Shown: in pieces, positions 13,709 through 53,646 of the stretch
Layout: each line of letters opens with the position of its first letter
Numbering within the stretch: position 1 is the stretch's first letter
Assembly: GCF_017311415.1 (NCBI RefSeq)
Contig: NZ_JAEKIS010000001.1
Coordinates: 1-64,000 of the forward strand
DNA length: 64,000 bases
Direction: 5' to 3'
From: Salipiger abyssi
GTDB taxonomy: Bacteria; Pseudomonadota; Alphaproteobacteria; Rhodobacterales; Rhodobacteraceae
Program-made: the position numbers and the translations under genes
Notes under the pieces: generated by a model
Seen by the model: only the letters and a program-made list of their open reading frames with translations
Told to the model about the DNA's origin: nothing
Databases searched by the model: none

Positions 13709-13877
13709 CCGGCAATGGCAGCGCCCAACTGATTTCCGTCGGCGGGCAAGCCCGCCTTTACAGCGCGAAGCAAATCAGCCGGGCTTTGCCATCAAGGCCC
13801 TCGCAAAGGGCTCGGGCTGCCAGGCCGGAGCGCCCGTGGGCTTGTCGTCGCCATCAAGGCCGCGACGGTCGCGGTCC
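13709..13877 (+). ncRNA. Candidate structured leader RNA, copy 1 (before the DUF2493 gene)
   Basis: The 13589-13895 stretch has no gene. Inside it an outer stem CTGATTT/AAATCAG (13729-13735 and 13772-13778) encloses hairpin GGCGGG-CAAG-CCCGCC (13741-13756) and the strand CAGCGCGAAGC. About 80 bases later a hairpin GG-CCGC/GCGG-bulge-CC (13858-13877) ends 18 bases before ATG 13896. All these elements recur in the same order before the DUF736 gene (20640-20807), where the outer stem differs on both sides yet still pairs. This supports an RNA element, most likely a cis-regulatory leader. Confidence 0.55.
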
Positions 13878-13895
13878 AGCCGAAGGACACATCCC

Positions 13896-14822
13896 ATGTA
13901 TGCCCATGACGAATTCGAACCCGATCACAGCACGTCTCCCACCGCCCATGTCATCGACGCGCTCGAACTCTACGGTTACCGTCCTGCCGAGGGCGAGGCC
14001 GACCCTCGGATCACGCCCGAGGATACCGCCATCCAGGGCGCGGTTGCCGACATCTTCGATGCCCTGATCTCCACCATGGCCGACACCAGCCTCGATTTCG
14101 ACCTCGACGAGATCATGTGGTCCACCGTCAATACCTTCCACCGCGCCGTCGAGCGGATCGAACGCAAACTCGACGATAACGAGCAGGCCCAGAAGCGCCT
14201 TCAGCGCGAACAGGACGGAAGCGAGGTGAAATCTGTCCAGTTGGAGACCCTGATCGGCATCGGACAAAACCTGATCGAGCGCCGCGACAGCATGGAGACC
14301 TTCCGCGACACTGCCGCCGACCTCTTCCTGCGCACCACAGGCACGCCCTGGTCGCCGCGCTCCGGATCACGGGTCAACCATCGCCAGATGACCTCGGCCA
14401 TGATCGACAGTCGCGACTTCATCGCCGCCAAACGCAAGGCCGACAACGAGCTGATTTTGCCCGCCGGGCCGAAGATTGCCTTCTCGGGCGGAGATACCAC
14501 CGATCACCGGCTGATCTGGGACAGGCTCGATCAGGTTCATGCCAAGCACCCCGACATGGTGCTCCTGCACGGCGGCAGCCCGAAAGGCGCCGAACGCATC
14601 GCCGCGACCTGGGCCCACAATCGCAAGGTGCCGCAGGTCGCCTTCAAGCCCGACTGGGTGAAACACGCCAAGGCTGCGCCGTTCAAGCGCAACGACCGGA
14701 TGCTCGACACGATGCCGATCGGGGTCATCGTCTTCCCCGGCACGGGTATCCAGGAAAATCTCGCCGACAAGGCTCGCAAGATTGGCGTTCCAGTCTACCG
14801 CCTCGCAAAGGGCAGCGCGTGA
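13896..14822 (+). CDS. DUF2493 (SLOG/YspA-like) protein
   Basis: 308 aa from ATG 13896. The C-terminal third is a Rossmann-like DUF2493 domain of the SLOG superfamily: IAFSGGDTTDHRLIWDRL, VLLHGGSPKGAERIAATW and VIVFPGTGIQENLADKA. SLOG domains bind nucleotide-type ligands and act as sensors or processors in conflict and stress systems. The N-terminal two thirds are helical with coiled-coil potential (about residues 85-140). It closes the left backbone segment; the accessory island begins just after its stop. Confidence 0.85.
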   Translation: MYAHDEFEPDHSTSPTAHVIDALELYGYRPAEGEADPRITPEDTAIQGAVADIFDALISTMADTSLDFDLDEIMWSTVNTFHRAVERIERKLDDNEQAQKRLQREQDGSEVKSVQLETLIGIGQNLIERRDSMETFRDTAADLFLRTTGTPWSPRSGSRVNHRQMTSAMIDSRDFIAAKRKADNELILPAGPKIAFSGGDTTDHRLIWDRLDQVHAKHPDMVLLHGGSPKGAERIAATWAHNRKVPQVAFKPDWVKHAKAAPFKRNDRMLDTMPIGVIVFPGTGIQENLADKARKIGVPVYRLAKGSA

Positions 14823-14956: not shown

Positions 14957-16249
14957 TCATAGCTTCTTGAGCATCTCAATTTCGCGAAGTGCTGCCCGTT
15001 CAAAGCGTTTAACTTGCTGAGAGATCTTCTCATCGCCCGCGAATGCGGCGGCGCTTCGGCGGCCATAGGAAGAAAAATTTCTGACGATACGAAGCCCCTC
15101 TTCATCGCGCACCTTCAGATGGGTGAAGCGGCGATACAGGCGCTTGGTGTGTGCCTTTGTAGACTTTCCAGAAGCGATGTTCCGCTCTGCGATCTTGCGG
15201 GTCCGACGCACCGCTCTTCGCATCTTCCGCCACTGGCGAGCGAGTGAGCTTTCTCTGATGGTTGGCCCGGATTCGTGCAGCGCGAAGCCAAGGTATTGAG
15301 CTGCTTTCCCTACGACTGCGCCCGTGCCTGTGAATTCGGTCCTTTCGGTTTTATGTGGTGATATCTCGAGCTTCTCTGCCTTGATTAGATCCATGATCTT
15401 TGCTTCGGCAGCTTTGGCGTGAGTAGGGTCACAGATTACCAAAATGTCGTCTGAATACCGGCGATAGAGTGCGCCAATGCTGTCGCAGTAGGCGCGTGCC
15501 GCCGTGTCGAAATCGATCATGTATAGGTTCGACACGGCTGCACTGATCGGCGTGCCCTGAGGAACACCTCTCCGATAGCCTTTTGCCAGTTCCGGGTTCG
15601 GGTGGAACTTGATGCCATTGGCTTTGAGTTCTTCGACACTGGCGATCCTGACCCGGCTGTTTTCCTTGAGCCGAGTGGAGAATGTTGGGTTCGCCTTAAG
15701 CTCTTCCATATCGACGTAGTGGAAGGCGGTAATTGATCGAAATACTCGCATCCAGTGTTCGGGGAGCGACGCTACGCCCAGCAAGGCCTTCAGGCGGCGC
15801 TTCAGGAGTGCGTGGTCAAGGTTGTCGAAGAAGCTACTGACGTCGAAAGCCAGTATCGTGACAGGGGCATGGGTCTTGGCATACGCAAACACCTCTGCTG
15901 AGAAATCGTAGTTTCCGCGTCCGAGGGCACGATAGGCCAGAACGCTGTCGGACAGACCTGCGGCGTCATAATGGGCGTCCAGCAACTTATTCATCTCTCT
16001 GGCATAGAAGGAAAGTATGCAGGCGTCCCGATGCGATGCATACTTGATAGGGCGATCTTTCGAGGTGATCGTCCGGGTACCGGTCTTTGGGCACTTCTTG
16101 TAGCGTTTTTCTGACTTGGTGTAGTGCAGGAGAGGGAGGAACGAGTGCTTGAGCACGAAGCCGGGGTCCATCACCTTACCGGCGAACTTCTCGCCTACGG
16201 GCAGATCGAAATGGCGGTAGCCTCTGGACTTAAACCAATCGAGCGACAT
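14957..16249 (-). CDS. Reverse transcriptase of the DRT/Abi-like (unknown group) or retron type
   Basis: 430 aa from ATG 16249, with a strong AAGGAGG four bases upstream. RT motifs are in order: A FDVSSFFDNLDH (135-146), B RGVPQGTPISAAVSNLY (227-243), C YRRYSDDI (262-269), D around KLEISPHKTERTEF (293-306), E QYLGF (318-322). Both catalytic Asp of SDD and the motif A Asp are present, so it should polymerise DNA. There is no maturase, endonuclease or integrase domain, which excludes a group II intron ORF. The single-gene layout with a structured non-coding region upstream resembles defence-associated RTs such as DRT2, but I cannot place the clade. It sits in the accessory island next to the graspetide operon. 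Confidence 0.85.
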   Translation of the reverse strand: MSLDWFKSRGYRHFDLPVGEKFAGKVMDPGFVLKHSFLPLLHYTKSEKRYKKCPKTGTRTITSKDRPIKYASHRDACILSFYAREMNKLLDAHYDAAGLSDSVLAYRALGRGNYDFSAEVFAYAKTHAPVTILAFDVSSFFDNLDHALLKRRLKALLGVASLPEHWMRVFRSITAFHYVDMEELKANPTFSTRLKENSRVRIASVEELKANGIKFHPNPELAKGYRRGVPQGTPISAAVSNLYMIDFDTAARAYCDSIGALYRRYSDDILVICDPTHAKAAEAKIMDLIKAEKLEISPHKTERTEFTGTGAVVGKAAQYLGFALHESGPTIRESSLARQWRKMRRAVRRTRKIAERNIASGKSTKAHTKRLYRRFTHLKVRDEEGLRIVRNFSSYGRRSAAAFAGDEKISQQVKRFERAALREIEMLKKL

Positions 16250-16435
16250 TGAACCTCCTTGTCGCAGAGTTCGGAGGACTGGCCCTGACCCTGGGCTCCG
16301 GTTTTCAGGCCGGGCGTCCCCCGAACGCACGCCACCTTCTGTCAGCGTATACGTTCAGCGTGTCTTCTCCGAACGCCTCGCAGACACGGGTCTCGAAACG
16401 CGAGGTGGTATAATGTAACCGTGGAGGTCCGAGCG
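16250..16435 (-). ncRNA. Candidate non-coding RNA region upstream of the reverse transcriptase
   Basis: No reading frame spans this stretch, but it is rich in pairing: GTTCGGAG (16269-16276) and CTCCGAAC (16366-16373) are perfect inverted partners about 90 bases apart; between them lie CCGG-TTTTCAGG-CCGG and the palindrome CGTATACG flanked by CAGCG and TTCAGCG. Retrons and DRT2-like systems encode their template RNA exactly here, upstream of the RT. Whether this RNA is made, and its ends, cannot be told from sequence alone. Confidence 0.4.
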
Positions 16436-16789: not shown

Positions 16790-17557
16790 TCATTCAGCTA
16801 AGCTCGCACCCATCGATAAGGGCAAGCAGGACGGGGCATCGCCAAGTGTTGGAATGCGATAGCTCAGGACACCATCGACAGGTACATGCGGTAGGTCAAT
16901 CAGGGAGCAAACACCTTCTTCTAGTACTTCGCTCGCTCCCTGCCTTTCCTCGAAGATCACAGTCGCCACACTGGTCCCCCAATCGACGGCAACGATTAGC
17001 ATGATGGAAAGGAATGCGCGAAAGATATGTGCCTGCGTCAATCGAACATAGGTAATCTTCTTATTGTTTAGTGGGTAGTTCAGCCTTGTAGCATCAATCA
17101 ACTTAATGGCTGTCGCTGCTCGGGTATCTTTATCACTAAAGACCTCTGATAAATCGGCCTCCCCTATCGAATGAAGCACGCTCGGCATGGTCGCGCGTGC
17201 GGCATACCATCCGGCCATCAGAACGTAGATTAGGACCAAGGCGAAGAGCGCTATCTCGATGGCCAGCACAGGGTTGCGGAAGCGGTCAGAAAAGGTTGGA
17301 CTCAAAGTGCCAATCACGGGAATAACTGCCGCGAGGAAAGCCAGATAGAGCGCGGCCTTTGTATCCGCGCTCTGCCGCCGCCGAACCTCTGCGTCGTGCA
17401 GGTTGATTGCCATCTCCATCGCAAACTCGGCATTCGTAGCGAGCAATTCAGTTGTGACGACTCTTTCCGGTGGCTCTGCGACGGCTCCTGACGCATGAGG
17501 GAAGATTACGTTGAGGATGGCTCTGGCTGCCCTTCTAACGTTATGAGGTTCGCTCAT
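16790..17557 (-). CDS. Three-helix membrane protein of the graspetide operon
   Basis: 255 aa. Hydrophobic segments at about 69-86, 97-120 and 178-202, with a charged N-terminal region (AMEMAINLHDAEVRRRQSAD) preceding the first pair. The arrangement of a helical region plus a close pair of membrane helices recalls SLATT/2TM proteins known from conflict systems, but I see no decisive motif. Its ATG overlaps the ATP-grasp stop (ATGA), so the two are made together. Possible roles are export, anchoring or self-protection linked to the modified peptide. Confidence 0.6.
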   Translation of the reverse strand: MSEPHNVRRAARAILNVIFPHASGAVAEPPERVVTTELLATNAEFAMEMAINLHDAEVRRRQSADTKAALYLAFLAAVIPVIGTLSPTFSDRFRNPVLAIEIALFALVLIYVLMAGWYAARATMPSVLHSIGEADLSEVFSDKDTRAATAIKLIDATRLNYPLNNKKITYVRLTQAHIFRAFLSIMLIVAVDWGTSVATVIFEERQGASEVLEEGVCSLIDLPHVPVDGVLSYRIPTLGDAPSCLPLSMGASLAE

Positions 17558-18534
17558 TTGACTAAAGCGTCCACGAGCGCCGACGCGATCGACACGCCTT
17601 CAACTTGCTCCAGCCATGCCCATTGACCGTTCGGGTTGGCCTCAAGAAACCAGAACTTCCCGTTGCAATCTTCGACTAGGTCCACGGCCGCGAAGCGTAA
17701 ATCGAGCCTCTGAACCACCGCCACACAAGCCTTCGCAACTTCGGTTGGGAGAGTGACGCGTTCGTGGACAAGATCCGTCCGTCCACCGCGCCGCCAATCG
17801 ACGCGAGTTTCTTCGTGCACTTGAGAATGGATCGCGACTGCAATTGCGACTTGATCCACAATGGTGACGCGGAGATCGCGACGTTTGGGGATCAGCGATT
17901 GGACGATTACTGGGACGGCCTCAAATGCCTCACGCTCCCCCTCGCACAGACTAGCCAACTCTGACGTGAAAATAACCTGCCCAGGTCCATTGGGTGCGTC
18001 GACCAAAGCGCGCCGCAGTGGCTTGATCACGCATCGGTGCCTTTCCGAAAGGCCGCGTGCGGCGTCGAAGTCGTTTCCGATGACGGTGGGCGGAACTGGC
18101 AGGCCGCACGCACGGGCTACGGATAGCTGGCGAGGCTTGTCCTCGGCACGTAGGATAGCGAAGGGCGAGTTTAGCCAGCGTCCCTCCAGTGCGTTCCAAA
18201 GGCTGCGTGTCGTGGCGCTCCATTCCTGTACTGCGTAGGTGTAAGCCTCGCCATCTTGGACGTTTTTGGGCTCAGGCGGCTCCGGGCGCCGGTAGTAAGC
18301 CGATACGAACCCACCGAGTGGGTGAACGACACCGCGGATCGAGATCGTTCCAGTTAGCGTCGCGTCCTCCGCGAAGGTAACGATCGCTTGAGGCAAGTCC
18401 TCAGTGTTTATCCGAACGAATGGCACACCACGATTGCGCATCTCGCGCACAAGAAAGTCGGTCGTAATGTCCTGCTTGTTCGTCGCGAGCAGAACCCCGC
18501 CAGAATTCTTAGACAAGCATTTCAGCCGTATCAT
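17554..18534 (-). CDS. ATP-grasp graspetide ligase (MvdD/MvdC-like)
   Basis: 326 aa from ATG 18534; the start overlaps the end of the precursor gene by 26 bases. An N-terminal pre-ATP-grasp region (VSAYYRRPEPPEPK at 78-90) is followed by the ATP-grasp fold: CVIKPL (168-173), the DLR motif (220-222) in RRDLRVTIV, HSQVHEETRVDWRR (236-249), and the metal-binding FLEANPNGQW (296-305). These are hallmarks of ligases that join Thr/Ser/Lys side chains to Glu/Asp in precursor peptides, giving macrolactones or macrolactams. A precursor with matching residues lies immediately upstream. Confidence 0.88.
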   Translation of the reverse strand: MIRLKCLSKNSGGVLLATNKQDITTDFLVREMRNRGVPFVRINTEDLPQAIVTFAEDATLTGTISIRGVVHPLGGFVSAYYRRPEPPEPKNVQDGEAYTYAVQEWSATTRSLWNALEGRWLNSPFAILRAEDKPRQLSVARACGLPVPPTVIGNDFDAARGLSERHRCVIKPLRRALVDAPNGPGQVIFTSELASLCEGEREAFEAVPVIVQSLIPKRRDLRVTIVDQVAIAVAIHSQVHEETRVDWRRGGRTDLVHERVTLPTEVAKACVAVVQRLDLRFAAVDLVEDCNGKFWFLEANPNGQWAWLEQVEGVSIASALVDALVK

Positions 18535-18877
18535 CGGCTTCCCGTCCCGCATCCGTTTTTGTTTGAAGTGACGCAGCCAAAGCGCCTAAAGCTTGATCTT
18601 CCCGCTCCAGATTGGCCTCTGTCTTGGTCTGCAGCATGTTGGTCATTGAGAGCGACTCATCGTCCTGCTCGGTATGCGTTAACGTCTTAGTCACCAATGA
18701 AAGCTGAGAATTGTGCATATCTATCGCGTTGCGTTCACCCGCCTGCGTCGGAACCATCCACATTTCACACTCGTCGCAGTAGCGGCCTGGCATGGATGGT
18801 TCATTGCGACGCGGGGTGCCGTATCGAAGCAATATCGGCAGGGTCTTCTCGCTGTTACGGTTCTTCATAGAAATCAT
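18509..18877 (-). CDS. Graspetide-type precursor peptide with three core repeats
   Basis: 122 aa from ATG 18877 (ATG 18868 also possible). The leader half holds ILLRYGTPRRNEP and RYCDECEMWMVP. The C-terminal half has three repeats of about 20 residues with consensus L-x-T-K-T-x4-E-x-[DE]-D: TKTLTHTEQDDE, TKTEANLEREDQ and TKTDAGREADDT. Thr/Lys donors followed at fixed distance by Glu/Asp acceptors is what a graspetide ligase uses, and the ligase gene overlaps the 3' end. The core differs from the microviridin TxKYPSDW pattern. The expected product is a multi-core, side-chain-linked peptide; no peptidase gene is beside it. Confidence 0.75.
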   Translation of the reverse strand: MISMKNRNSEKTLPILLRYGTPRRNEPSMPGRYCDECEMWMVPTQAGERNAIDMHNSQLSLVTKTLTHTEQDDESLSMTNMLQTKTEANLEREDQALGALAASLQTKTDAGREADDTAEMLV

Positions 18878-19142: not shown

Positions 19143-19673
19143 CTAGCCCGACCTTCTGAACGGGATGGTGCGGAGGTGGTGTAGCCCACCGTTTTCAAGC
19201 TTAACCACCTCCAGGGCGCGGATGGTTCCCAAGAGCGGGAAGCCTCCAAGGGAAGACGTCCCTAAACGCTCGATATTCGTTCGATCAGGGTTCGTCGCGA
19301 CCGTCATGTGTGGACGGTAGGGAATATCGTCTTTTCGCTCCGCCCTCTGAGCGCCTTCGTAGAGCTGCTCATGCAGTGCCGCCAACTGGGAACTTCCGGT
19401 CGAGCTGACGAGTAGCAGTTTATAGGTCTTTTCAAAGGGATCGTGTGTAATCGCCTCTGAGACGAAAGACACCTCAAACTGCGATGACCTGTTGGCCACC
19501 GCCTCGCAGCGTTCCAGGAACTCATGAGGGCGAATGTTCGTCAGCCCGAACACGAGAGTTACATGTGGTGGAACGAGCTCGGCTCTGGCCGGCTCGTTCT
19601 CGGTCCGAAACCGACGAATGCGCTCGGCGACACTCGGCTCAAACTGTGGATATGCCAGGACGTAAATCATCAC
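19143..19673 (-). CDS. 2H phosphoesterase (2'-5' RNA ligase family)
   Basis: 176 aa starting MMIYVLAYP. Two His-x-Thr-type motifs define the family: HVTL at 37-40 (PPHVTLVFG) and HMTV at 122-125 (YRPHMTVATN). Members open or close 2',5' and cyclic phosphodiester bonds in RNA or nucleotides, and viral members destroy immune second messengers. It is on the same strand as the peptide operon but 265 bases upstream of it, in a stretch without other genes, so linkage to either the RT or the peptide genes is possible but unproven. Confidence 0.8.
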   Translation of the reverse strand: MMIYVLAYPQFEPSVAERIRRFRTENEPARAELVPPHVTLVFGLTNIRPHEFLERCEAVANRSSQFEVSFVSEAITHDPFEKTYKLLLVSSTGSSQLAALHEQLYEGAQRAERKDDIPYRPHMTVATNPDRTNIERLGTSSLGGFPLLGTIRALEVVKLENGGLHHLRTIPFRRSG

Positions 19674-19838
19674 GACACAGTCGGGAAATCTGCAACATGG
19701 GTCAACGATCGGCTGGTTCCCTCAGGGGGGCGGGTCACCTTGTGTCTCGCCCAAAGACAAGAATTCTGCTAACTTTCAGGTTGCGCCATGGTGGTGGTGG
19801 CAGGCGCGACCGTTCCACGTCAAACGGGAGACACCACC

Positions 19839-20639: not shown

Positions 20640-20807
20640 GACCGGCTTGGCGCAACAGCGCCGCCATAACTTTCTTCCCCTGGGCTGCGCCCATTCCGCG
20701 CGAAACAAGAAAGTTCTGCCTGTGCTGTCCGGCTCCCGGCAGGCCGGGGGTGCGCCGCCGGTCGTCTCCGGCCTGTCGATCGCCATCGGGCCGCAATGGT
20801 GCGGACC
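20640..20807 (+). ncRNA. Candidate structured leader RNA, copy 2 (before the DUF736 gene)
   Basis: The 20277-20832 stretch has no convincing gene. It contains outer stem AACTTTCTT/AAGAAAGTT (about 20668-20713) enclosing hairpin TGGGC-TGC-GCCCA and the strand CCGCGCGAAAC, then, after about 75 bases, hairpin GG-CCGC/GCGG-bulge-CC (20789-20807), 25 bases before ATG 20833. The block TCGATCGCCATCGGGCCGC matches TCGTCGCCATCAAGGCCGC of copy 1. Compensatory change in the outer stem between copies argues for conserved RNA structure. Confidence 0.55.
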
Positions 20808-20832
20808 TGGAAACGGAAAACGGAGACTTAAA

Positions 20833-21156
20833 ATGGCTACCATCGGCACCTTCAAGAAGACCGGCAACGAATTCACCGGCGAAATCGTCACCCTCAGCGT
20901 TCAGGCCAAGGGCGTGCGCATCGTCCCCGACACCCGCGCCACCGGCGAGAACGCCCCCAGCCACCGGGTCCTGGTCGGTCGCGCCGAGATCGGCGCCGCC
21001 TGGTCCAAGCGCTCGGCCGAGGGCCGCGGCTATCTGGGCCTCAAGCTCGACGATCCAAGCTTCACCGCCCCGATCTACGCCAATCTCTTCGACGACGAAG
21101 ACGGCGAGAGCTACGCGCTGATCTGGTCCCGCCCCAACGGTCGCCGCAGCGAGTAG
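20833..21156 (+). CDS. DUF736 protein
   Basis: 107 aa: MATIGTFKKTGNEFTGEIVT, later VLVGRAEIGAAWSKRS and SFTAPIYANLFDDEDGESYA, ending LIWSRPNGRR. This is the standard DUF736 layout, a small beta-rich family found on alphaproteobacterial plasmids and ICEs, whose function is unknown. A second member lies at 25587. The gene stands alone behind a long structured leader and before a strong hairpin. Confidence 0.9.
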   Translation: MATIGTFKKTGNEFTGEIVTLSVQAKGVRIVPDTRATGENAPSHRVLVGRAEIGAAWSKRSAEGRGYLGLKLDDPSFTAPIYANLFDDEDGESYALIWSRPNGRRSE

Positions 21157-44429: not shown

Positions 44430-44921
44430 TCAGGCGTTTTTCACCTCGATGCGCTTGACCTTGGCCTGCGCCTCCGGGGTCTGCGGCAGCTTGATCGTCA
44501 GCACGCCGTTCTTGAAGCTGGCATCGGCCTTCTCACCGTCGACTCCCGGCGGTAGCGGGATCGTGCGATAGATCGCGCCATAGCTGCGTTCGGAGAGATA
44601 ATAGCCCTTCTTCTCCTCCTGCCGCTCGATCTTCTTCTCGCCCTTGATGGTCAGCATGTCGTCGGTCACGGTGACCTCGATGTCCTTCATTTCCATCCCG
44701 GGCAGTTCGATCGATACCTCCACGTGATCTTCGGTCTCGACCACGTCGGATTTCGCCTCGCCGCCTCCCCAGGGCCAGTCGAAATCGCCGACGCGGTTCC
44801 AGAAGCCTTCAAACACACGGTTCATGTCGCGTTGAAGGGTGGCGATGGGGTTCTGGTCATCACTTTTCGGGTCGGGCGCATGATCCTTCCGCGCCCAAGG
44901 GATCAGGTCCTTGATCTGCAT
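44430..44921 (-). CDS. Hsp20 small heat-shock protein (sHSP 1)
   Basis: 163 aa from ATG 44921 with AAAGGAG upstream. N-terminal arm MQIKDLIPWARKDH; alpha-crystallin domain with DVVETEDHVEVSIELPGMEM and the conserved FKNGVLTIKLPQ, C-terminal IxV-like (IEV) tail. Holdase that binds unfolding proteins for ClpK/DnaK. It begins the heat-resistance cargo and is the last of three sHSP genes on the minus strand (45804 to 44430). Confidence 0.93.
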   Translation of the reverse strand: MQIKDLIPWARKDHAPDPKSDDQNPIATLQRDMNRVFEGFWNRVGDFDWPWGGGEAKSDVVETEDHVEVSIELPGMEMKDIEVTVTDDMLTIKGEKKIERQEEKKGYYLSERSYGAIYRTIPLPPGVDGEKADASFKNGVLTIKLPQTPEAQAKVKRIEVKNA

Positions 44922-44961
44922 GTGAGTTCTCCTTTCTTCTTTTGGGTGCGACATGTCGGGT

Positions 44962-45360
44962 TTACGAAGCCGTTACCGTGATCTTTTTGGGTTGGGCTTC
45001 CGCTGCGCGCGGCAGCGTCAGGGTCAACACACCGTTCGAGACCTGCGCGCCGATCTTGTCGGGGTCGAAGTCGTCGGACATGGTGAAGGCTCGCTCGAAA
45101 TCGCCCTCGCCGTATTCGGCATAGGCCAATTGCAGCTTCTCGGGCTGCGTGGCATGGACCTTACCTCGGATCGTCAACACGCGCTTTTCGAGCGTGATAT
45201 CCACGTCTTCGGCGGCGACGCCCGGCATCTCGAGCATCAGCGTCACCCCGTCAGTCGTTTCGACGATGTCGGTCAGCGGCCTGTAGATACGACGGCCGGT
45301 GGTGGTTTCCGGTGTCTCGGCCGCGGTCTTGTCGGCAGTATGTGTCACATCGTTGGTCAT
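44962..45360 (-). CDS. Hsp20 small heat-shock protein (sHSP 2)
   Basis: 132 aa from ATG 45360 with GAGGAGG upstream. Shorter type: Thr-rich N-terminal arm, then IYRPLTDIVETTDGVTLMLE, the region KRVLTIRGKVHATQPEKLQL, and the core VSNGVLTLTLPRAAEAQPKK. The missing long arm and the IxV-poor end are typical of the second sHSP of stress-tolerance loci. It is 15 bases after sHSP 3. Confidence 0.92.
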   Translation of the reverse strand: MTNDVTHTADKTAAETPETTTGRRIYRPLTDIVETTDGVTLMLEMPGVAAEDVDITLEKRVLTIRGKVHATQPEKLQLAYAEYGEGDFERAFTMSDDFDPDKIGAQVSNGVLTLTLPRAAEAQPKKITVTAS

Positions 45361-45375
45361 GGATCGGTCCTCCTC

Positions 45376-45804
45376 TTACGCAGCCTTGATCTCGATTTTC
45401 CGCGGCTTGTCCTCTTCGGGACGGCCGATCACGATGCGCAGCACACCGTTGGTCATCCGCGCCTCGACCTTGTCCTCTGCGGCCACGAACGGCAGCCGAA
45501 CCGAACGAGCGAACTTGCCAAAGCCGCGTTCGTTGCGGTGCCAGCGGCCGCCTTCCGGAATTTCGGGCGCCTTGCGCTCGCCAGAGAGCGTCAGGACATT
45601 TTCCTTCACGGAAATGTCGATGTCGGCCGGGTCAACGCCAGGGAGTTCTGCCGTGATCGCGACTGCCTCGTCGCCCTGCCAGACGTTCACGGCGGGGAAA
45701 ACGGGCTGGGTCACGCGGCCAGGAGAGGTCCTGTCAAAATCGCGCAGCATCGAGCGCATCAGCGCAAACGGATCGCTGCGACGTGTGTAGGTGGGATAGA
45801 GCAT
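45376..45804 (-). CDS. Hsp20 small heat-shock protein (sHSP 3)
   Basis: 142 aa from ATG 45804 (CGGAGG upstream). MLYPTYTRRSDPFALMRSML, the crystallin domain AVAITAELPGVDPADIDISV, RWHRNERGFGKFARSVRLPF and MTNGVLRIVIGRP, ending KIEIKAA. First gene of the minus-strand sHSP operon. A CTTGAA heat-shock-like -35 box lies upstream (complement of 45891-45896), and the leader has the hairpin GGCGTGG/CCACGCC (about 45829-45851). A truncated relative is at 63397. Confidence 0.93.
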   Translation of the reverse strand: MLYPTYTRRSDPFALMRSMLRDFDRTSPGRVTQPVFPAVNVWQGDEAVAITAELPGVDPADIDISVKENVLTLSGERKAPEIPEGGRWHRNERGFGKFARSVRLPFVAAEDKVEARMTNGVLRIVIGRPEEDKPRKIEIKAA

Positions 45805-46068
45805 GTTTCGCCTCCGTCGTTTCAGTTGACGGCGTGGATTTGTCACCACGCCACTGAACGCCCGCGGAGAATGGACATGCTTCAAGGTTCGCCATTTCGG
45901 CGGCGGTCTGGTGCGTTTGCGTCTGCCATGCGTTCCTCTCAGGCGAACGTCAGGCGGTCCGCTGAATCAGCCGAACCTGTCGCGTATCCGTGAAACCCCA
46001 ACTGGGCGTTCCGCTGCGGATAAAGTGTTGCTTGTTTGCAACTTCAAGGCCTCAGCGCAAAAAAGTAC

Positions 46069-47004
46069 TCATCGATAGACGCCCCAGGGCCCGTAACGCG
46101 GCGTGGAGACGCGCACAGCCCGCGGTGCGTTCAGGGGAACGGACGGTGGGACCGGTCGGCGGGGTCCGGAAAGTGCACGCAGTCGCCGGACTCGATCGGC
46201 GGTGGGCGGGTGCGTGCGCAGGATCGAGGGTTCGGGGATGCGGCGGCCGGGCAGGAACATCTCTTCCCAGACCCGCCCGATGCGGCGTTCCAGCTTGAGG
46301 AGGGCCGAAGCGAGGCCATCGGGATCGCCGGTCAGCTCGGCGCCGCCCCTGTCGGCATCGTATTCCCGGGCCCGCGACAGCGCGAGCTGAAGAAGGGCCA
46401 TGATCGTGGGTGAAAAGATCAGGACAAGTGGTACCTGCCAGGGCACATAAGCCGCGCCGGCCAGGATTAGCGGCAGGTTCAGCAGCAGGATGAGTTGCCC
46501 AACCCAGGACGCGAGCGACACCGCGCGCGACATCGCGTCGGCCAGACCCATGATCCAGAGATCGCGGTTGGCGATGTGAGCGACCTCGTGCGCCAGGACC
46601 CCGGCCAGTTCGCGCTGGTTCATCAATCGCAGAAGACCATCGCTGACGCAGACGGCGCTTTCATCCGGAGAGCCCATAGCGAAGGCGTTCGGTATCTGGC
46701 TCGGTACATAGTAGAGTTCCGGTACACGCGGCAGCCCGGCGCGGCGTGCGAGTTCGGCCAGTATCGCCATGCCCTCTGGAAATTCCCGCCCGCTGAGCCT
46801 GCGTGCGCCGTAGGCGTTCAGCAACAGGCGTTTCGGGATGCCGGGTGACAGCAGCAATCCCAGCAAGGATCCGATGACGATCGGAATCGCCAAGCCCTGT
46901 CCCGCAATCGCCGAAACGATGAACCAGGCGATAACCGCCATACCCGCCAAAAGCAGGATGGATTGAAGCAGGTTCAGGAATTGGTGGCGCGGCGTTGCAG
47001 TCAT
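46069..47004 (-). CDS. M48 metalloprotease (HtpX-like)
   Basis: 311 aa from ATG 47004; a GTG at 47022 is weaker. Two N-terminal membrane helices, zinc motif HEVAH (139-143), a second pair of hydrophobic stretches (about 165-205), and the third ligand region SRAREYDADRGGAEL. It degrades damaged inner-membrane proteins, partnering FtsH. It is divergent from ftsH, sharing the intergenic heat-shock promoter palindrome. M48 proteases of this type belong to known heat-resistance loci. Confidence 0.9.
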   Translation of the reverse strand: MTATPRHQFLNLLQSILLLAGMAVIAWFIVSAIAGQGLAIPIVIGSLLGLLLSPGIPKRLLLNAYGARRLSGREFPEGMAILAELARRAGLPRVPELYYVPSQIPNAFAMGSPDESAVCVSDGLLRLMNQRELAGVLAHEVAHIANRDLWIMGLADAMSRAVSLASWVGQLILLLNLPLILAGAAYVPWQVPLVLIFSPTIMALLQLALSRAREYDADRGGAELTGDPDGLASALLKLERRIGRVWEEMFLPGRRIPEPSILRTHPPTADRVRRLRALSGPRRPVPPSVPLNAPRAVRVSTPRYGPWGVYR

Positions 47005-47105
47005 GATCGCAATAAACTTCACTTGCAGCTAACGGGAAGTGGCACACCACGGGATGTAAGAATTTTGGGCATCGTTGCCAGCTTCGATCTTCATGTCGGA
47101 TCCCT

Positions 47106-47122
47106 CTTGAACTCGGCTCAAG
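47106..47122. promoter_or_regulatory. Palindromic, two-way heat-shock -35 element
   Basis: CTTGAACTCGGCTCAAG gives CTTGAA on the plus strand toward ftsH and CTTGAG on the minus strand toward the M48 gene. CTTGAA is the RpoH (sigma-32) -35 box in proteobacteria. The plus-strand -10 would fall near 47125-47132; it is only a weak match. Confidence 0.45.
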
Positions 47123-47191
47123 CAATACCAATCTGGCCGGGTGTGATAAACCAGCAACATCTCTACGGGTTGGCGCCGAGGAGATAAGGGG

Positions 47192-49024
47192 ATGGAAAAG
47201 AGAACCGAATTTAATATCTGGTACTGGATCGTCGCATTTTTTGCGGTGATCTTTATTCAGGATCTGATCGCCAGCTACCGCAGCACCGCGCCGATCAGCT
47301 ATAGCCAATTCGAACAGTATCTAGCCGACGGCGACATCGCTTCGGTTGCGGTCGGGTCCGATACGATCACCGGTACTTTCGGAGCTCCCATCGACGGGCG
47401 CTCGGGCTTCGTCACCACGATCGTCGATCCCGCCATTCTTGAACGGCTGGACGACGCGGATGTCGAGATCACCGGCATTCCGCAAAACACCTGGATCGGG
47501 GCGCTTCTCTCCTGGGTGGTGCCGGCAGTGGTCTTCTTCGGTCTCTGGATGTTCGTCTTTCGCAAGTTCGCCGAGCGTCAGGGTTTTGGCGGCTTCCTGC
47601 AGGTCGGCAAGAGCAAGGCCAAGGTCTACATGGAGAAGGAAACCGGCGTCAGTTTTGCCGATGTGGCCGGGGTCGACGAGGCCAAGGCCGAGCTGGAGGA
47701 AGTGGTCGATTTCCTGAAGACGCCCGAGGAATACGGCAAGCTCGGCGCGCGGATCCCGAAAGGTATCCTGCTGGTCGGCCCGCCGGGTACCGGCAAGACG
47801 CTTCTGGCGCGGGCCGTGGCGGGCGAGGCGGGCGTGACCTTCTTCTCGATCTCCGGCTCTGAATTCGTCGAGATGTTCGTGGGCGTCGGCGCCGCAAGGG
47901 TGCGCGATCTGTTCGAGCAGGCCCGCAAGAACGCACCCGCGATCATCTTCATTGACGAGCTCGACGCGCTTGGTCGCGCCCGCGCCTCCGGTCAGATGGC
48001 CGGCGGGCATGACGAGCGTGAGCAGACGCTGAACCAGCTTCTCACTGAGCTGGACGGGTTCGACCCGTCGTCGGGGATCGTGCTGCTGGCGGCCACCAAC
48101 CGGCCGGAAATCCTGGACCCGGCGCTGCTCAGGGCCGGGCGCTTCGACCGGCAGGTGCTGGTGGACAAGCCCGACAAGAAGGGCCGCATCCAGATCCTCG
48201 GGGTACACATGAAGAAGGTGACGCTCGCACCGGATGTGGATGCCGAGAAGGTCGCCGCGCTGACCCCGGGCTTTTCCGGAGCGGACCTGGCAAATCTGGT
48301 CAATGAGGCGGCGCTATTGGCAACCCGCCGAAAGGCCGATGCGGTGACCATGGAAGACTTCAACAACGCGGTAGAGCGTATCGTCGCCGGGCTGGAAAAG
48401 CGCAATCGTGTTCTGAACGCGCGCGAGCGGGAAATCGTGGCGCATCACGAAATGGGGCACGCGCTGGTCGCGATGGCGCTGCCGGCGGTCGATCCGGTGC
48501 ACAAGGTCTCGATCATCCCGCGCGGGATCGGTGCGCTCGGCTATACGATCCAGCGCCCGACCGAAGACCGCTTCCTGATGACCCGCGAGGAACTGGAGAA
48601 CAAGATCGCCGTTCTTCTGGGCGGGCGTGCGGCCGAGAAGGTCATATACGATCACCTTTCGACCGGTGCCGCCGACGACCTGGTGAAGGCAACCGACATC
48701 GCCAGGGGCATGGTCGCGCGCTACGGCATGGACCCCGATCTGGGCCATGTCAGCTATGACACCGAGCGGCCCGGCTTCCTTGGCACGGGGGATCAATCCG
48801 CCTGGCTCAACCGCCGCCACAGCGAGGCAACGGCCGAGCGGATGGATACCGCTGTCAAGGCGATCATCGACGACATCTTCGCACGTACGGTCGCGCTTCT
48901 CGACGCGAACCGGGCGCTGCTGGAGGAAACGTCCCGCGATCTGCTCGACCGCGAGACGCTGGACGAGCCCGACCTTCGGGCCATCGCAGAAAAGGTCCGC
49001 ACTCAGGAGGTCGAGGCGGCCTGA
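47192..49024 (+). CDS. ftsH: FtsH membrane AAA+ protease
   Basis: 610 aa. Two membrane helices (about 10-27 and 105-123) around a small periplasmic domain; AAA+ with Walker A GPPGTGKT (about 196-203), Walker [15 protein letters not shown] region [20 protein letters not shown]; zinc protease motif HEMGH (419-423). It removes damaged membrane proteins. It is a second, cargo-borne FtsH, as in described stress-tolerance loci, and is followed 52 bases later by the disaggregase gene. Confidence 0.95.
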
Positions 49025-49076
49025 ATATAGAGACCCAGTCCGGACGTTCCGGCTGGGAGCATGACGGAGGTGAAAA

Positions 49077-51857
49077 ATGGCAAACGGCATCTGTGATATC
49101 TGCAAATCCCGACCTGCCAGCTTTCGTGCGCAGGTCTCTGTCAACGGTGAACGCAAGGTGATGGAGCTTTGCGACGAGGACTACCGCAGGATCGCCCGAC
49201 GGCAGGGGCGTAGCGCATCGCCACTGGAATCGCTTTTCGGAGGGCGCTCGCTCTTCGATGAATTCTTTGGCGATGCCGGTGGCCTTTTCGATCGGTTTGG
49301 CGAAGATCAGGGGCAACCCGTCCCGATCCGACAGGCGGGGCGCACCGCGCGGCGCGGCGGCATCAATATCGCTGACCGCCTGAGCGAACAGGCCAACCGG
49401 CTTTTGCAGGAGGCGGGCCAGAAGGCGCATGAATTCGGCCGGACCGAGGTTGATACGGAACACCTTCTGCTGGCGCTGACCGGCTCGGATGTTGTCCGCA
49501 CGGTGCTGGGGCAGGTCAAGATCGACGCCGACGATCTGCGCCGCCAGATCGAGAGCGAAGCGAAGAAGGGCGACGCAACGGGGGAGGACCGTGAGATCGG
49601 CGTCAGCCCGCGGGTGAAGGATGCGCTGAACCGCGCCTTCATCGCCTCGAACGAGCTGGGCCATTCCTATGTCGGCCCCGAACACCTTCTGATCGGTCTC
49701 GCCGAAGAGGGGGAGGGCGTGGCGTCGAGCATCTTGAACCGGCTGGGCCTGACGCCGCAGGCGCTACGCCAGCAGGTGACGAAGGTCGTCGGTCAGGGGG
49801 CCGAGGAAGGCCGTGTCGAAACCCCGTCGAGCACGCCTGATCTGGATGAATATAGCCGCGATTTGACCAAGCTGGCGCGCGAGGGCAGGCTCGACCCGGT
49901 GATCGGCCGGGCGCGTGAAATCGAAACGACGATCGAGGTTCTGGCGCGGCGCAAGAAGAACAACCCGGTGCTGATCGGCGAACCGGGTGTCGGCAAGACC
50001 GCGATCATCGAGGGGCTGGCGCAGCGCATCGTCGCGGGCGAGGTGCCCGAGGCGCTGCGCGACAAACGGCTGGTCGAACTCAACATCAACTCGATGGTGG
50101 CCGGATCGAAATATCGCGGTGAGTTCGAGGAGCGGGTCCAGAAGATCCTCAAGGAGATCGAGGCCAACAAGGCCGACATGATCCTGTTCATCGACGAGAT
50201 CCACACCATCGTCGGAGCCGGACAGGGCGGCGGCGAAGGCGGGCTCGACATCGCCAATACGTTCAAGCCGGCGCTGGCCCGCGGCGAGCTGAACCTGATC
50301 GGCGCGACCACCCTGAACGAGTACCAGAAATACATCGAGAAGGACGCCGCGCTGGAGCGCCGCTTCCAGCCGGTCTATGTCGATGAGCCGACGGTGGCGC
50401 AGACGATCATGATCCTGCGGGGCCTGCGCGACACGCTGGAAAGCCACCACAAGGTGACGATCACCGACGAGGCCATCGTCGCGGCGGCCGAGCTTTCCGA
50501 CCGCTACGTCACCGGCCGCTTCATGCCCGATAAGGCCATCGACCTGATCGACCAGGCTGCCGCGCGCGTGAAGATCAGCGCTACCGCGCGTCCCGTCGAT
50601 GTCCAGGAGCTCGAGGCTGAGGTCGCCCAGATCCGGCGCGAGCAGGACTACGCCGCGGGGAGGAAGCAGTTCGACCGTGCTGCTGAACTCAAGAAAGAGC
50701 TTGAAACGAAACAGGTCGAGCTTGACGAGTTGATGGAAACCTGGAAGCGCGACCGGGCCTCTGCGACGGCTGAAGTGCGCGCCGATCACGTGGCGCAGAT
50801 CGTCTCGAAACTGACCGGCGTGCCGGTGAGCGAACTGACGACAGAAGAGCGCGAAAAGCTGCTGAAACTCGAGGACAAGTTGCATGAGCGGGTAATCGGC
50901 CAGGAAGAGGCCATCCATGCCGTTGCCGACGCCGTGCGACTGGCGCGCGCCGGGCTGCGCGAGGGCTCCGGCCCGACCGCGACCTTCCTGTTCCTCGGCC
51001 CGACCGGCGTTGGCAAGACCGAGCTGGCCAAGACTCTGGCGGAGACGATCTTCGGTGATCAGGATGCGATGATCCGCATCGACATGTCCGAATATGGCGA
51101 ACGTCACGCGGTCGCGCGGCTGGTTGGCGCCCCGCCGGGCTATGTCGGTTACGACGAGGGCGGCCAGTTGACGGAACGGGTCCGGCGCCGGCCCTATTCT
51201 GTCGTGCTGCTCGACGAGATCGAGAAGGCGCATGCGGATGTCTATAACATCCTGCTGCAGGTCTTCGACGATGGCCGCCTGACCGATGGCAAGGGCCGCG
51301 TGGTGGATTTCACCAACACTATCATCATCGCCACGTCGAACCTCGGTTCCGACATCATCCAGCGCAACCTTCGCAAGCGCGGAACCAAGGAGTTCGACGA
51401 GGCCGGGCAGAAGGCCGAACTGATGGACGTTCTGCGCGTTCATTTCCGGCCCGAGTTCATCAACCGGATCGACGAAATCATCGTCTTCCATTCTCTGAAC
51501 CAGTCGGAAATCCGGCAGATCGTCGAGCTGCAGCTGGCCCGCGTCGCCCGCACGGCGATGACCCAGGGCGTCGAGCTCGACTATGACGGAAGCGTTGCGG
51601 AGCATTTCGGAGCGGTGGGTTTCCGGCCAGAGTTCGGCGCCCGCGAGTTGCGACGGCTAATCCGGTCGGAGCTGGAGACCGAGCTCGCCCGCGAGATGCT
51701 TTCGGGCCGGATCGAGGACGGGGACAAGGTGCGCGTCGCCTGGACCGCGGATGATCAGAAGATCACGTTCCAAAAGCTGGAGAGCGCAGGAGAAACCGAG
51801 GCCCTCGGCGAGCCGGGCAATAGCGATAGCGAAGAGACCGAGCCTGCCGCCGAATGA
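49077..51857 (+). CDS. clpK: ClpK/ClpG-type stand-alone disaggregase
   Basis: 926 aa. N-terminal Cys-pair domain [20 protein letters not shown] characteristic of ClpG/ClpK and absent from ClpB, then a Clp-N domain (about 105-245), AAA1 with Walker A GEPGVGKT (about 300), a short middle domain (about 505-560), and AAA2 with Walker A GPTGVGKT (about 641). No IGF/L-type ClpP loop was recognised. ClpK/ClpG is the main determinant of heat survival in transmissible stress-tolerance loci. The acidic C-terminal tail (EETEPAAE) is of the expected type. Confidence 0.93.
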
Positions 51858-51916
51858 CGGCCCGTGCACCGGCGACGGTAGCGCCGCCGGTGCCGCAATC
51901 CGAAGAGAGGTAAATC

Positions 51917-52501
51917 ATGATGAAAGGACATAACCGCCCCCCATTTCGGCCGAAGATCCCCGGAACTGACCTGACATCTCCAGACGTGCCGACAGCGTTG
52001 ATCTACAGGCCAGCTCGCTCGTCCCACACCTCCGCTCCAATCAGGCGGCAGCATTGGATACTCGAGTTTGAGCCGGCCCGGGCGCCGGTCATCGAGCCTC
52101 TTATGGGCTGGACTGCAACCGAAGATCCCTATCGTCCGATCCGCCTGACATTCCCTGATCTCGACAGCGCCATCGCCTTCGCGGAACGAAACGACTGGCA
52201 GTATATCGTGCGCCACGAGCCGGACAAACGTCGATCCGTGCCACCGCGCCGCTTCTGGTGGGAAACCGTGCCAACCAGCAAGGGAGCCGATGCTCCTGGC
52301 GCCCATCGCATCGAGACAGGCCACCGACCGAGTTCCGGGCACCGGCTTCACCGAGGCATCGACGCGGCCAGCGTTCGTGATCTCTCAGCGGAACTCGCGA
52401 CGGCTGCAGACCCGGTCAGTGAAGCGAGTGCTGAGTCCTTCCCCGCGTCCGACCCACCGGCGTGGATCGGGGCGACTGTCTATGGAAGCGGGCGACGTTG
52501 A
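51917..52501 (+). CDS. NDUFS4-like (ETC complex I accessory) domain protein 1
   Basis: 194 aa (start MMKG, either Met). Central domain WILEFEPARAPVIEPLMGWT, then EDPYRPIRLTFPDLDSAIAF and a Trp-Tyr region matches the NDUFS4/ETC_C1 accessory subunit fold. The C-terminal end DPVSEASAESFPASDPPAWI is a motif found in stress-related alphaproteobacterial proteins. A role in protecting respiration is inferred. A hairpin (GCACCGGCG...CGCCGGTGC, about 51866-51893) lies between clpK and this gene. The next gene starts at its stop. Confidence 0.75.
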   Translation: MMKGHNRPPFRPKIPGTDLTSPDVPTALIYRPARSSHTSAPIRRQHWILEFEPARAPVIEPLMGWTATEDPYRPIRLTFPDLDSAIAFAERNDWQYIVRHEPDKRRSVPPRRFWWETVPTSKGADAPGAHRIETGHRPSSGHRLHRGIDAASVRDLSAELATAADPVSEASAESFPASDPPAWIGATVYGSGRR

Positions 52502-53646
52502 TGCACGCCGACCAGGGGCTGTTGGAGGCCGCCGCGTTGCTCGCCATGATGGCTTTTTGCCATGTCGCAATCTGCGCACGGCTTGGCATCCCCGCACTGG
52601 TCGGTTTCCTGCTGTCCGGCATTGTGATCGGGCCGTCGGGTCTGGGGCTCATCGCGGAGGGTGCAACACTGACGCTTATCGGTGAGGTCGGGGTGATCCT
52701 GCTTCTCTTTGCGCTTGGTCTGGAATTCTCCCTCGACAAGCTCGTGTCGCTCCGGCGACTGATCTTCGGGCTCGGTCTGGCACAGGTGCTCGTAGTCGGA
52801 GGGTTAGTCACCGTAGGGCTCCTCGTCTTTACCGAGATCGCGCCGGCGGCGGCGGTTCTGATCGCTGGCGCGGTCGCGATGTCGTCGACCGCGCTTTGCC
52901 TCAAGGTCCTGGCGGGCGGCGATGCGCTCGGAACGCCTCAGGGACGGGTCGCGATCGCTGTTCTGCTGTTTCAGGATCTGGCGGCCGTCGGCTTTCTGGC
53001 GTTTCACGATGTCATCGCCGCAGCCGGAGCCGTGGGAAGCGCGCACGACGTCCTGAAGATGGTTGGGGGCATGGGCGTGCTCGTCGGGGCGCTCTTCATC
53101 GCCCGGTCAATGCTTCAGCGGCTTGCCGGATGGGTCGCAACCCAGGGCGAGGCTGAACTCGCACAGCTTCTAGCCCTGACCGTAGCCTTGCTCGCGGCCA
53201 TTATTGCGCAGGGTGCGGGTCTTTCGCCGGCGCTCGGTGCATTCACTGCCGGCATGATGATCGCCGAGTGCGACGCTCGCCAATTTGTCGAACGGGAAAT
53301 CAGGCCGTTCCGGGATTTGTTCGTCGGGGTGTTCTTCATCGGTATCGGAACTCAACTCCATATAGGTGCGGTTTGGTCGACATGGCCAACGGTGTTGGCA
53401 TGGCTTTTTGTGCTCATGGTGGTGAAACTCGCGCTTGTTGTTGCCCTGACCCGCATGTTCGGAGAACAGCTCGAGACTGCGCTTCGCGCGGGCGCCATCC
53501 TGGCCCATGGCGGCGAATTCAGCTTGATGCTCATCTCTGTCACGACTGCCTCCGGCCTGTTGCAAGCCAAGGTCGCCGAGCCTCTGTTCCTCGCGTTGGG
53601 GCTGAGTATGCTGATTGGAGCGGTTGTGGTTCGTCGCGCAGCGTAA
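52501..53646 (+). CDS. Kef-type cation:proton antiporter, membrane domain only
   Basis: 381 aa from ATG 52501, about 11-12 membrane helices. Conserved LGIPALVGFLLSGIVIGPSG, FALGLEFSLDKL, LFQDLAAVGFLAFHD and LAHGGEFSLMLI. Full KefB-like proteins have a further RCK/TrkA-N domain after about residue 390; here the frame stops at 53646, about 37 bases before an IS30 copy, so the tail may have been lost. KefB-type antiporters are part of known heat-resistance loci. Confidence 0.85.
   Translation: MHADQGLLEAAALLAMMAFCHVAICARLGIPALVGFLLSGIVIGPSGLGLIAEGATLTLIGEVGVILLLFALGLEFSLDKLVSLRRLIFGLGLAQVLVVGGLVTVGLLVFTEIAPAAAVLIAGAVAMSSTALCLKVLAGGDALGTPQGRVAIAVLLFQDLAAVGFLAFHDVIAAAGAVGSAHDVLKMVGGMGVLVGALFIARSMLQRLAGWVATQGEAELAQLLALTVALLAAIIAQGAGLSPALGAFTAGMMIAECDARQFVEREIRPFRDLFVGVFFIGIGTQLHIGAVWSTWPTVLAWLFVLMVVKLALVVALTRMFGEQLETALRAGAILAHGGEFSLMLISVTTASGLLQAKVAEPLFLALGLSMLIGAVVVRRAA

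Follow-up and report, generated by a model that had tools for sequence, protein, structure and literature searches.

Graspetide synthetases phosphorylate an Asp or Glu carboxylate, which is then attacked by a Ser, Thr or Lys side chain (PMC13097080), and for thuringinin two ester links per repeat are described (PMC12291112). In the account of thuringinin-type loci by Makarova et al. (2022, PMC8939145), the repeat precursors of groups 3, 5 and 6 of Lee et al. form cluster 13, and uncharacterised membrane proteins specific for these loci form cluster 18, with 198 occurrences in Table 1 of that paper; a transport role was guessed for cluster 18, as few of the loci that contain it have a known peptide transporter. 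A second point of comparison is PycTM of the Pycsar systems, which disrupts membranes through a pore that forms on cyclic pyrimidine binding (PMC11224242). Here we describe a locus of Salipiger abyssi that is compared with both, comprising three minus-strand genes for a graspetide-type precursor, an ATP-grasp peptide maturase (the ligase) and a membrane protein with three transmembrane (TM) segments (the partner). It occupies positions 16790-18877 of a 64,000-nt stretch of contig NZ_JAEKIS010000001.1, hereafter the window, and is carried by a conjugative element.

The triad shares with the thuringinin-type loci described in PMC8939145 a single synthetase, a multi-copy precursor with Thr/Glu/Asp cores, a shared leader and an uncharacterised locus membrane protein, and differs from that account in that its partner is tied to PycTM and to defence neighbours, not to transport. 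Because repeat precursors together with a membrane protein are reported there for thuringinin loci, the layout of the triad as such is probably already known, and the partner likely belongs to the cluster 18 family, with which it was compared by description and not by sequence. The words 'phage' and 'defense' are absent from the main text of that paper, the graspetide passages of PMC11118758 do not describe such a triad, and no link of graspetides to a membrane effector or a defence island was found in the open-licence papers searched. The link between partner and PycTM, the defence neighbours and the carriage by a phage appear to be new, none of the three having been found in those papers. 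To judge from its sequence, the locus appears to be a graspetide module of the thuringinin-like kind, with a partner that resembles an immune pore.

A translationally coupled triad that recurs as a unit

The three genes (Table 1) are translationally coupled, with an overlap of 26 bases between the precursor stop (18509) and the ligase ATG (18534) and of 4 bases between the ligase stop (17554) and the ATG of the membrane protein (17557), which is where an earlier annotation of this DNA, made from the letters alone (the original prediction), had placed three overlapping open reading frames (ORFs). The precursor comprises 124 codons and starts at GTG 18883 or ATG 18877; an additional ATG of the ligase lies at 18552. 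The predicted Thr/Lys-Glu/Asp repeats were recovered as TKTLTHTEQDD, TKTEANLERED and TKTDAGREADD, three copies in the native sequence, where shuffling of the precursor residues produced one or more such motifs in 0.285% of 20000 trials, and an alignment of seven precursors showed a conserved leader, LLxRxxTPR...MPGRYxxExxMW. The ligase matched TIGR04187 at 6e-72 (242.5 bits; curated cut-off 350), TIGR04185 (MvdC) at 8.5e-46 and TIGR04184 (MvdD) at 1.9e-41, all scores lying under the curated cut-offs, which delimit those exact families. Its closest solved chain was 9bou, an MvdD-like enzyme (6.3e-34), followed by the ATP-grasp ligases 5ig8, 7m4s, 7mgv, 5ig9 and 7drm; we take 9bou, 5ig8, 7m4s and 7mgv to be microviridin-type enzymes. 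The DLR, VDWR and FLEANPNGQW stretches that had been singled out in the ligase are present and largely invariant in seven aligned relatives, namely the D and R of DLR, DWR, and all of FLEANPNGQW except its A. The locus holds two defining features of a graspetide cluster, an ATP-grasp peptide maturase of the MvdC/MvdD/SAV_5884 branch and, adjacent to it, a precursor with a conserved leader and a core with Thr/Ser/Lys donors and Asp/Glu acceptors; the third, side-chain crosslinks with loss of water, is predicted.

The recurrence of the triad was assayed in a scan of one genome per species (84,980 species), which yielded 444 ligase relatives, of which the best 80 were kept. A precursor was counted when an ORF with at least one strict T-x-T-x4-E-x-[DE]-[DE] motif had its end just within the ligase match or no more than 300 bases before it on the upstream side. 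Such a repeat precursor was found in 76 of the 80 genome loci (not in L082, L085, L088 and L092). The original prediction had named homologous ligases without a conserved precursor in the same position as the observation that would speak against it, and the upstream precursor is instead present in nearly all of the 80 loci. A membrane partner lay within 0.5 kb of the ligase in 78 of the 80 loci and directly downstream in 76, and all 76 of these matched the partner profile at ≤1e-10, including 23 of 23 outside the set from which the profile was built. The other two partners were located about 0.5 kb upstream of the ligase (L087) or found by the profile (L094), and the two loci without a partner are contigs that end just after the ligase, 23 bases (L019) and 82 bases (L085) past the ligase match. 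Across the 87 motif-bearing loci among 106 examined, 256 repeats gave the core T K T x V x x E x D D, and 222 of them have the K. The best 80 loci contain near-identical copies; the 84 partners used for clustering, with viral and plasmid loci included, were reduced to 67 at an 80% identity cut. Over 67 loci, ligase and partner distances correlated with r 0.835, a value reached in none of 2000 permutations.

The distribution is sporadic and extends to plasmids and phage. Among 195 related genomes the triad was present in two, the own genome and one of the same genus (ligase 87%, partner 74%), and among 337 alphaproteobacterial genomes the partner was found in two, each time beside the ligase; for two further, more distant ligases in the 337 genomes no partner was detectable. 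In plasmids, the ligase matched 84 records, five of them at 45-53% identity, and these are the same five that were matched by the membrane protein; the precursor matched those five and three weak Mesorhizobium records. To judge from record titles, precursor motif and partner occur together in Pseudomonadota, Bacteroidota and Nitrospirae metagenome-assembled genomes, among other hosts. Leptospira phage LE1 carries the full triad (L014 4685-6586) near ParB-like and helix-turn-helix genes, as do three virus-collection contigs (L097-L099); of 33 viral loci, 19 were examined for the triad, and strict repeats occurred only in L097-L100, the partner of L100 being the same as that of LE1. The three genes, for precursor, ATP-grasp maturase and three-TM partner, are thus found together repeatedly, and conjugative elements, plasmids and a phage carry them.

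Several further observations concern the limits of this family. The LE1 precursor is a single frame of 106 codons; the annotation in the record covers just its last 114 bases. The record MT835913.1 (L013; 'Bacteriophage sp.', UNVERIFIED), which carries the same triad as the Sphingomonas parapaucimobilis contig L035, was dropped as phage evidence; because the two are 99.98% identical over 9.76 kb, it probably represents bacterial or prophage DNA. In the virus-collection loci L101, L107 and L116, genes after more distant ligases matched the partner profile weakly (1.7e-7, 4.5e-4 and 1.5e-4, respectively), and by reason of these matches the partner family may reach beyond the TKT branch. A distant three-gene set was also seen on Rhizobium ruizarguesonis psymb (L015 4693-6712), consisting of a short ORF, a ligase at 31% and a protein with several hydrophobic segments; the short ORF retains a leader-like YDxxLGxW without TKT repeats, and the set possibly belongs to a wider family.

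The membrane partner and its relation to PycTM

The original description of the third gene product as a three-helix membrane protein agrees with its three hydrophobic segments and with an AlphaFold2 model that contains three long helices, 43-90, 97-123 and 145-214 (predicted local distance difference test score 83.7, predicted template-modelling score 0.72). Among 58 partner sequences the most conserved residues were P20 (58), R60 (58), N165 (57), K167 (56), E57 (55) and K67 (55). All of them except P20 sit where the helices run up to TM1 and TM3, which probably places E57, R60, K67, N165 and K167 on one side of the membrane.

Three PycTM models of PADLOC matched 29, 19 and 13 of 60 partners at E ≤0.01, with a best value of 4e-7 and 8e-6 for the window protein. 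Of 61 control membrane ORFs, drawn from the own genome and from the flanks of the fetched loci, these models matched none; in PADLOC as a whole, one of these 61 controls matched RTasSLATT models (1.4e-25) and one a 2TM model (0.0081). For a profile comparison, all 19 PycTM matches at 1e-6 from 299 genomes were taken by coordinates alone. Aligned to this set by hhalign, the partner profile gave a probability of 93.7% and an E value of 2e-7 (for a single comparison) over 132 columns that span the three TM segments, at 12% identity. The probability against the pooled 61 control membrane ORFs was 0%, a weak control because 61 proteins are not one family. A first PycTM alignment, which gave 82.7%, was replaced by the 19-sequence set, since nine of its ten members had been chosen for a D-x-K-A-like pattern, a choice that favours a match; HMMER with the A6 profile and the profile of this first alignment (A8) separated the groups only in part. 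On the strength of the profile alignment and the model matches, the partner is probably a remote PycTM homologue.

The partner resembles PycTM of Pycsar in its three hydrophobic segments, in an (A)D-x-K-A motif just before TM1 and in a conserved K before TM3. The systems differ in that a peptide and a peptide ligase stand in place of the pyrimidine cyclase. No cyclase model was reported in PADLOC for four of the five cargo proteins, and none was among the best 25 of 78 families for the reverse transcriptase of the cargo; PADLOC-DB 2.0.0 returned no family for precursor and ligase up to E 1. With no cyclase reported in the cargo, the triad is not a Pycsar system, nor is it a listed PADLOC system. 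The 2TM effectors of the cyclic oligonucleotide-based antiphage signalling system (CBASS) are likewise small membrane effectors of defence operons, but the partner has three TM segments and matches them far less often than PycTM, at most three of 60 partners matching any one 2TM model.

Neighbouring genes and the conjugative element

The neighbourhood of the triads was assayed on candidate ORFs of 150-900 aa, two per side, which numbered 227 after twelve mostly near-identical loci were left out and of which a shuffled 124 were scanned. These 124 neighbours matched 188 PADLOC models at 1e-20, a figure that is not a gene count because the models are redundant for the same proteins; among the best 25 of the 188, GajA and GajB, the Gabija proteins, lead with at most four ORFs each. 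By comparison, 124 ORFs of the own genome matched two PADLOC models at 1e-20, mad3 (5 ORFs) and AriA (1). Pfam matches of the neighbours included Shedu (2), type I specificity subunits (2), Eco29kI (1), phage integrases (3) and recombinases (2). Seven of ten large neighbours matched PADLOC at 1e-40, which does not give a rate because the ten were chosen for size: GajA and GajB (L053), GajA (L030), IetS (L067), a PDC-S73/TIR-Argonaute class protein (L084), a type III restriction enzyme (L020) and PifA (L045).

In the window itself, the triad lies in a cargo segment of a conjugative element whose backbone genes include an RlxS-like relaxase, an IncP-type TraG, TrbB, TrbE, TrbL and TrbI. The match between the window and a sister element (L177) breaks off after 14829 and resumes at 19781, so that the cargo measures about 4.95 kb. 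The G+C content falls to 53-59% in 1-kb windows within about 14.5-20 kb, compared with 61-69% in flanking backbone windows. The relaxase, the coupling protein, the type IV secretion genes and the near-empty site of the sister element identify the segment as conjugative cargo, and together with the family match of the ligase and the conserved precursor they bear out the predicted graspetide-type operon on an integrative and conjugative element (ICE)-like element.

Table 1. Features of the triad and its cargo segment, in window coordinates
Feature	Position	Strand	Description
Graspetide-type precursor	18509..18877	-	Leader and three core repeats of type TKTxxxxExDD
ATP-grasp ribosomal peptide maturase	17554..18534	-	TIGR04187 match and solved-structure relatives
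Three-TM protein, PycTM-like membrane partner	16790..17557	-	255 aa
Cargo segment	14830..19780		Missing from sister element L177 (68 bp there)
DRT2-type reverse transcriptase	14957..16330	-	PADLOC Drt2 1.6e-130; NCBIfam Drt2 386.5 bits (cut-off 390)
RT-13 RNA	16264..16332	-	Rfam RF03017, 80.7 bits (gathering 69.1); at start of the reverse transcriptase gene
2'-5' RNA ligase/LigT-superfamily gene	19143..19673	-	Upstream of the triad, at the other cargo end

The reverse transcriptase that had been noted beside the operon is real, as are the conjugation genes, and it is of the DRT2 type, adjoining the triad directly downstream on the same strand and within the same cargo. It was considered as a fourth part of the system and rejected, since DRT2 occurs in the flanks of none of 125 other fetched loci, a search in which the window served as positive control; the DRT2 reverse transcriptase is probably a separate system.

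The cargo slot holds different genes in related elements. From 19068 onward the DNA is 93% identical to another cargo of the same slot; in a further sister element (L178) the slot holds a DpdE- and DruE-like helicase system (8.7e-194 and 3.7e-78), and further copies hold oxidoreductase-, major facilitator superfamily-type transporter- and transposon-like genes, as judged by eye from sequence starts. The cargo hot spot is the interval between genes 13836-14822 and 20719-21153, which we take to be DUF2493-like and DUF736-like, respectively, and measures about 1 kb in L177 and about 16 kb in L180. The window gene 13884-14819 has four matches in the own genome (contigs C1, C17, C28 and C31), which therefore probably contains several related mobile elements. 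Elsewhere on the same element, at 44430-53646, a set of genes resembles a transmissible heat-resistance locus (by eye, from sequence starts), with an Hsp20-like gene (44430-44954), an FtsH-like protease (47192-49024), a ClpB/ClpK-like ATPase (49077-51857) and a KefB-like transporter (52462-53646).

Possible function and rival explanations

The PycTM-like partner, the DRT2 neighbour and the defence genes near other triads tilt the earlier suggestion of a competition or defence system towards defence. We give about even odds to the triad being a self-contained intracellular module in which a graspetide controls a membrane effector, a module that would protect against phage through abortive infection or as a toxin-antitoxin-like switch. 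By analogy with characterised graspetide synthetases, the maturase would staple each TKTxxxxExDD repeat, joining Thr and perhaps Lys to Glu/Asp; from the known synthetase chemistry each repeat should form a small ring system, and the product would be a multivalent 'beads on a string' peptide. Because the triad includes neither a protease nor an exporter, this peptide would be expected to remain in the cytoplasm, where it could act as the ligand that sets the state of an oligomeric membrane partner, as cyclic pyrimidine nucleotides do for PycTM. Infection might then shift the balance of modified and unmodified peptide, upon which the partner, toxic when freed or activated, would oligomerise, breach the inner membrane and stop the phage. 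The stapled peptide could be an activator or a brake, and the gene order, with the peptide first and the membrane protein last, slightly favours a brake. The more specific proposal that a stapled ribosomal peptide serves as an intracellular immune signal in place of cyclic nucleotides, opening a PycTM-like pore or holding it shut, is put forward tentatively and may well prove wrong.

Several points weigh against this effector reading. The PycTM relation is remote, and at 0.01 even the best PycTM model leaves 31 of 60 partners unmatched. In Pfam, no family matched the window protein above the cut-off, and the 60 partners had weak matches scattered over 57 families, with the PycTM model not among the best 25 of the 57. 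Single-sequence hhalign was weak, with 5 of 19 PycTM and none of 61 controls at E ≤0.01 and none at 50% probability. Fold searches with the AlphaFold2 model were uninformative, with no match at E ≤0.001 in PDB or BFVD; VIA-align matched unrelated long-helix proteins such as IKK-beta and BAR domains with Z as high as 9.8, as is common for helical models, and a PDB sequence search with the partner profile (an alignment of six) gave one chance-level match (E 0.44). The neighbour tally includes redundant models, its details cover the best 25 of the 188, and it is set against 400 kb from a single genome. Of the ten large neighbours, three have no PADLOC match at 1e-40, and DRT2 is absent from the flanks of the other fetched loci. 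The triad contains no cyclase or other sensor. Moreover, a gene on a mobile element is often found close to defence genes although it has no part in defence itself.

The membrane protein had originally been proposed to export, anchor or guard the product. Its homology suggests an effector-like protein, which fits better, and the other roles are still compatible with the data. Export of the graspetide, which would then act outside the cell as a protease inhibitor, a signal or an antimicrobial, agrees with the transport suggested for cluster 18, most of whose loci have no known peptide transporter, and with the statement in the same paper that all graspetides characterised by 2022 were protease inhibitors (PMC8939145). 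Against export stand the size of the partner, about 200-400 aa and in most cases 205-300, and its three TM segments; the window protein shows no ATPase, peptidase or known transporter family, most of the conserved polar residues (E57, R60, K67, N165 and K167) lie outside the predicted TM segments, and the PycTM relation and the defence-gene and phage settings also speak against export. We consider it unlikely. The lack of a leader peptidase and an exporter gene in the triad speaks against a secreted bacteriocin-like weapon with the membrane protein as its immunity protein, as do the presence of the triad in a phage and the PycTM relation. Although self-protection genes often close such operons and the triad is found on a conjugative element and on plasmids, this is the least probable of the explanations considered.

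The strict co-occurrence of ligase and partner, and the correlation of their distances, would also agree with a membrane protein that is a partner or scaffold of the synthetase, holding it at the membrane or activating it there. Partner-dependent synthetases exist, such as rosaritide MirC (PMC13097080), and a title cited in PMC8939145 names a membrane protein scaffold for microviridin, known from that title alone. MirC, however, is described as SurA-like with an unknown N-terminal domain and not as a TM bundle (PMC13097080), and a scaffold leaves the PycTM relation and the defence neighbours unexplained; it is considered very unlikely. A further alternative is a maintenance module of mobile elements, a toxin-antitoxin pair without phage defence in which the membrane protein is the toxin and the peptide or the modified peptide the antitoxin. 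Translational coupling, carriage by plasmid, phage and ICE, and the presence in two of 337 genomes would all suit such a module, whereas some triads lie on chromosome-size contigs (L047, 6.0 Mb; L066, 6.25 Mb) and some beside defence systems, and it is judged quite unlikely.

Graspetides are mined as natural products, yet loci of this type are mostly without a known exporter (PMC8939145). The ties of the partner to PycTM, and of the loci to defence genes, conjugative elements and a phage, make the question of their biological role simply testable, and confirmation would place stapled peptides among the signals that control bacterial immune effectors. If a stapled peptide does serve as the intracellular immune signal, this branch of graspetides would consist of immune messengers or antitoxins and not of secreted natural products.

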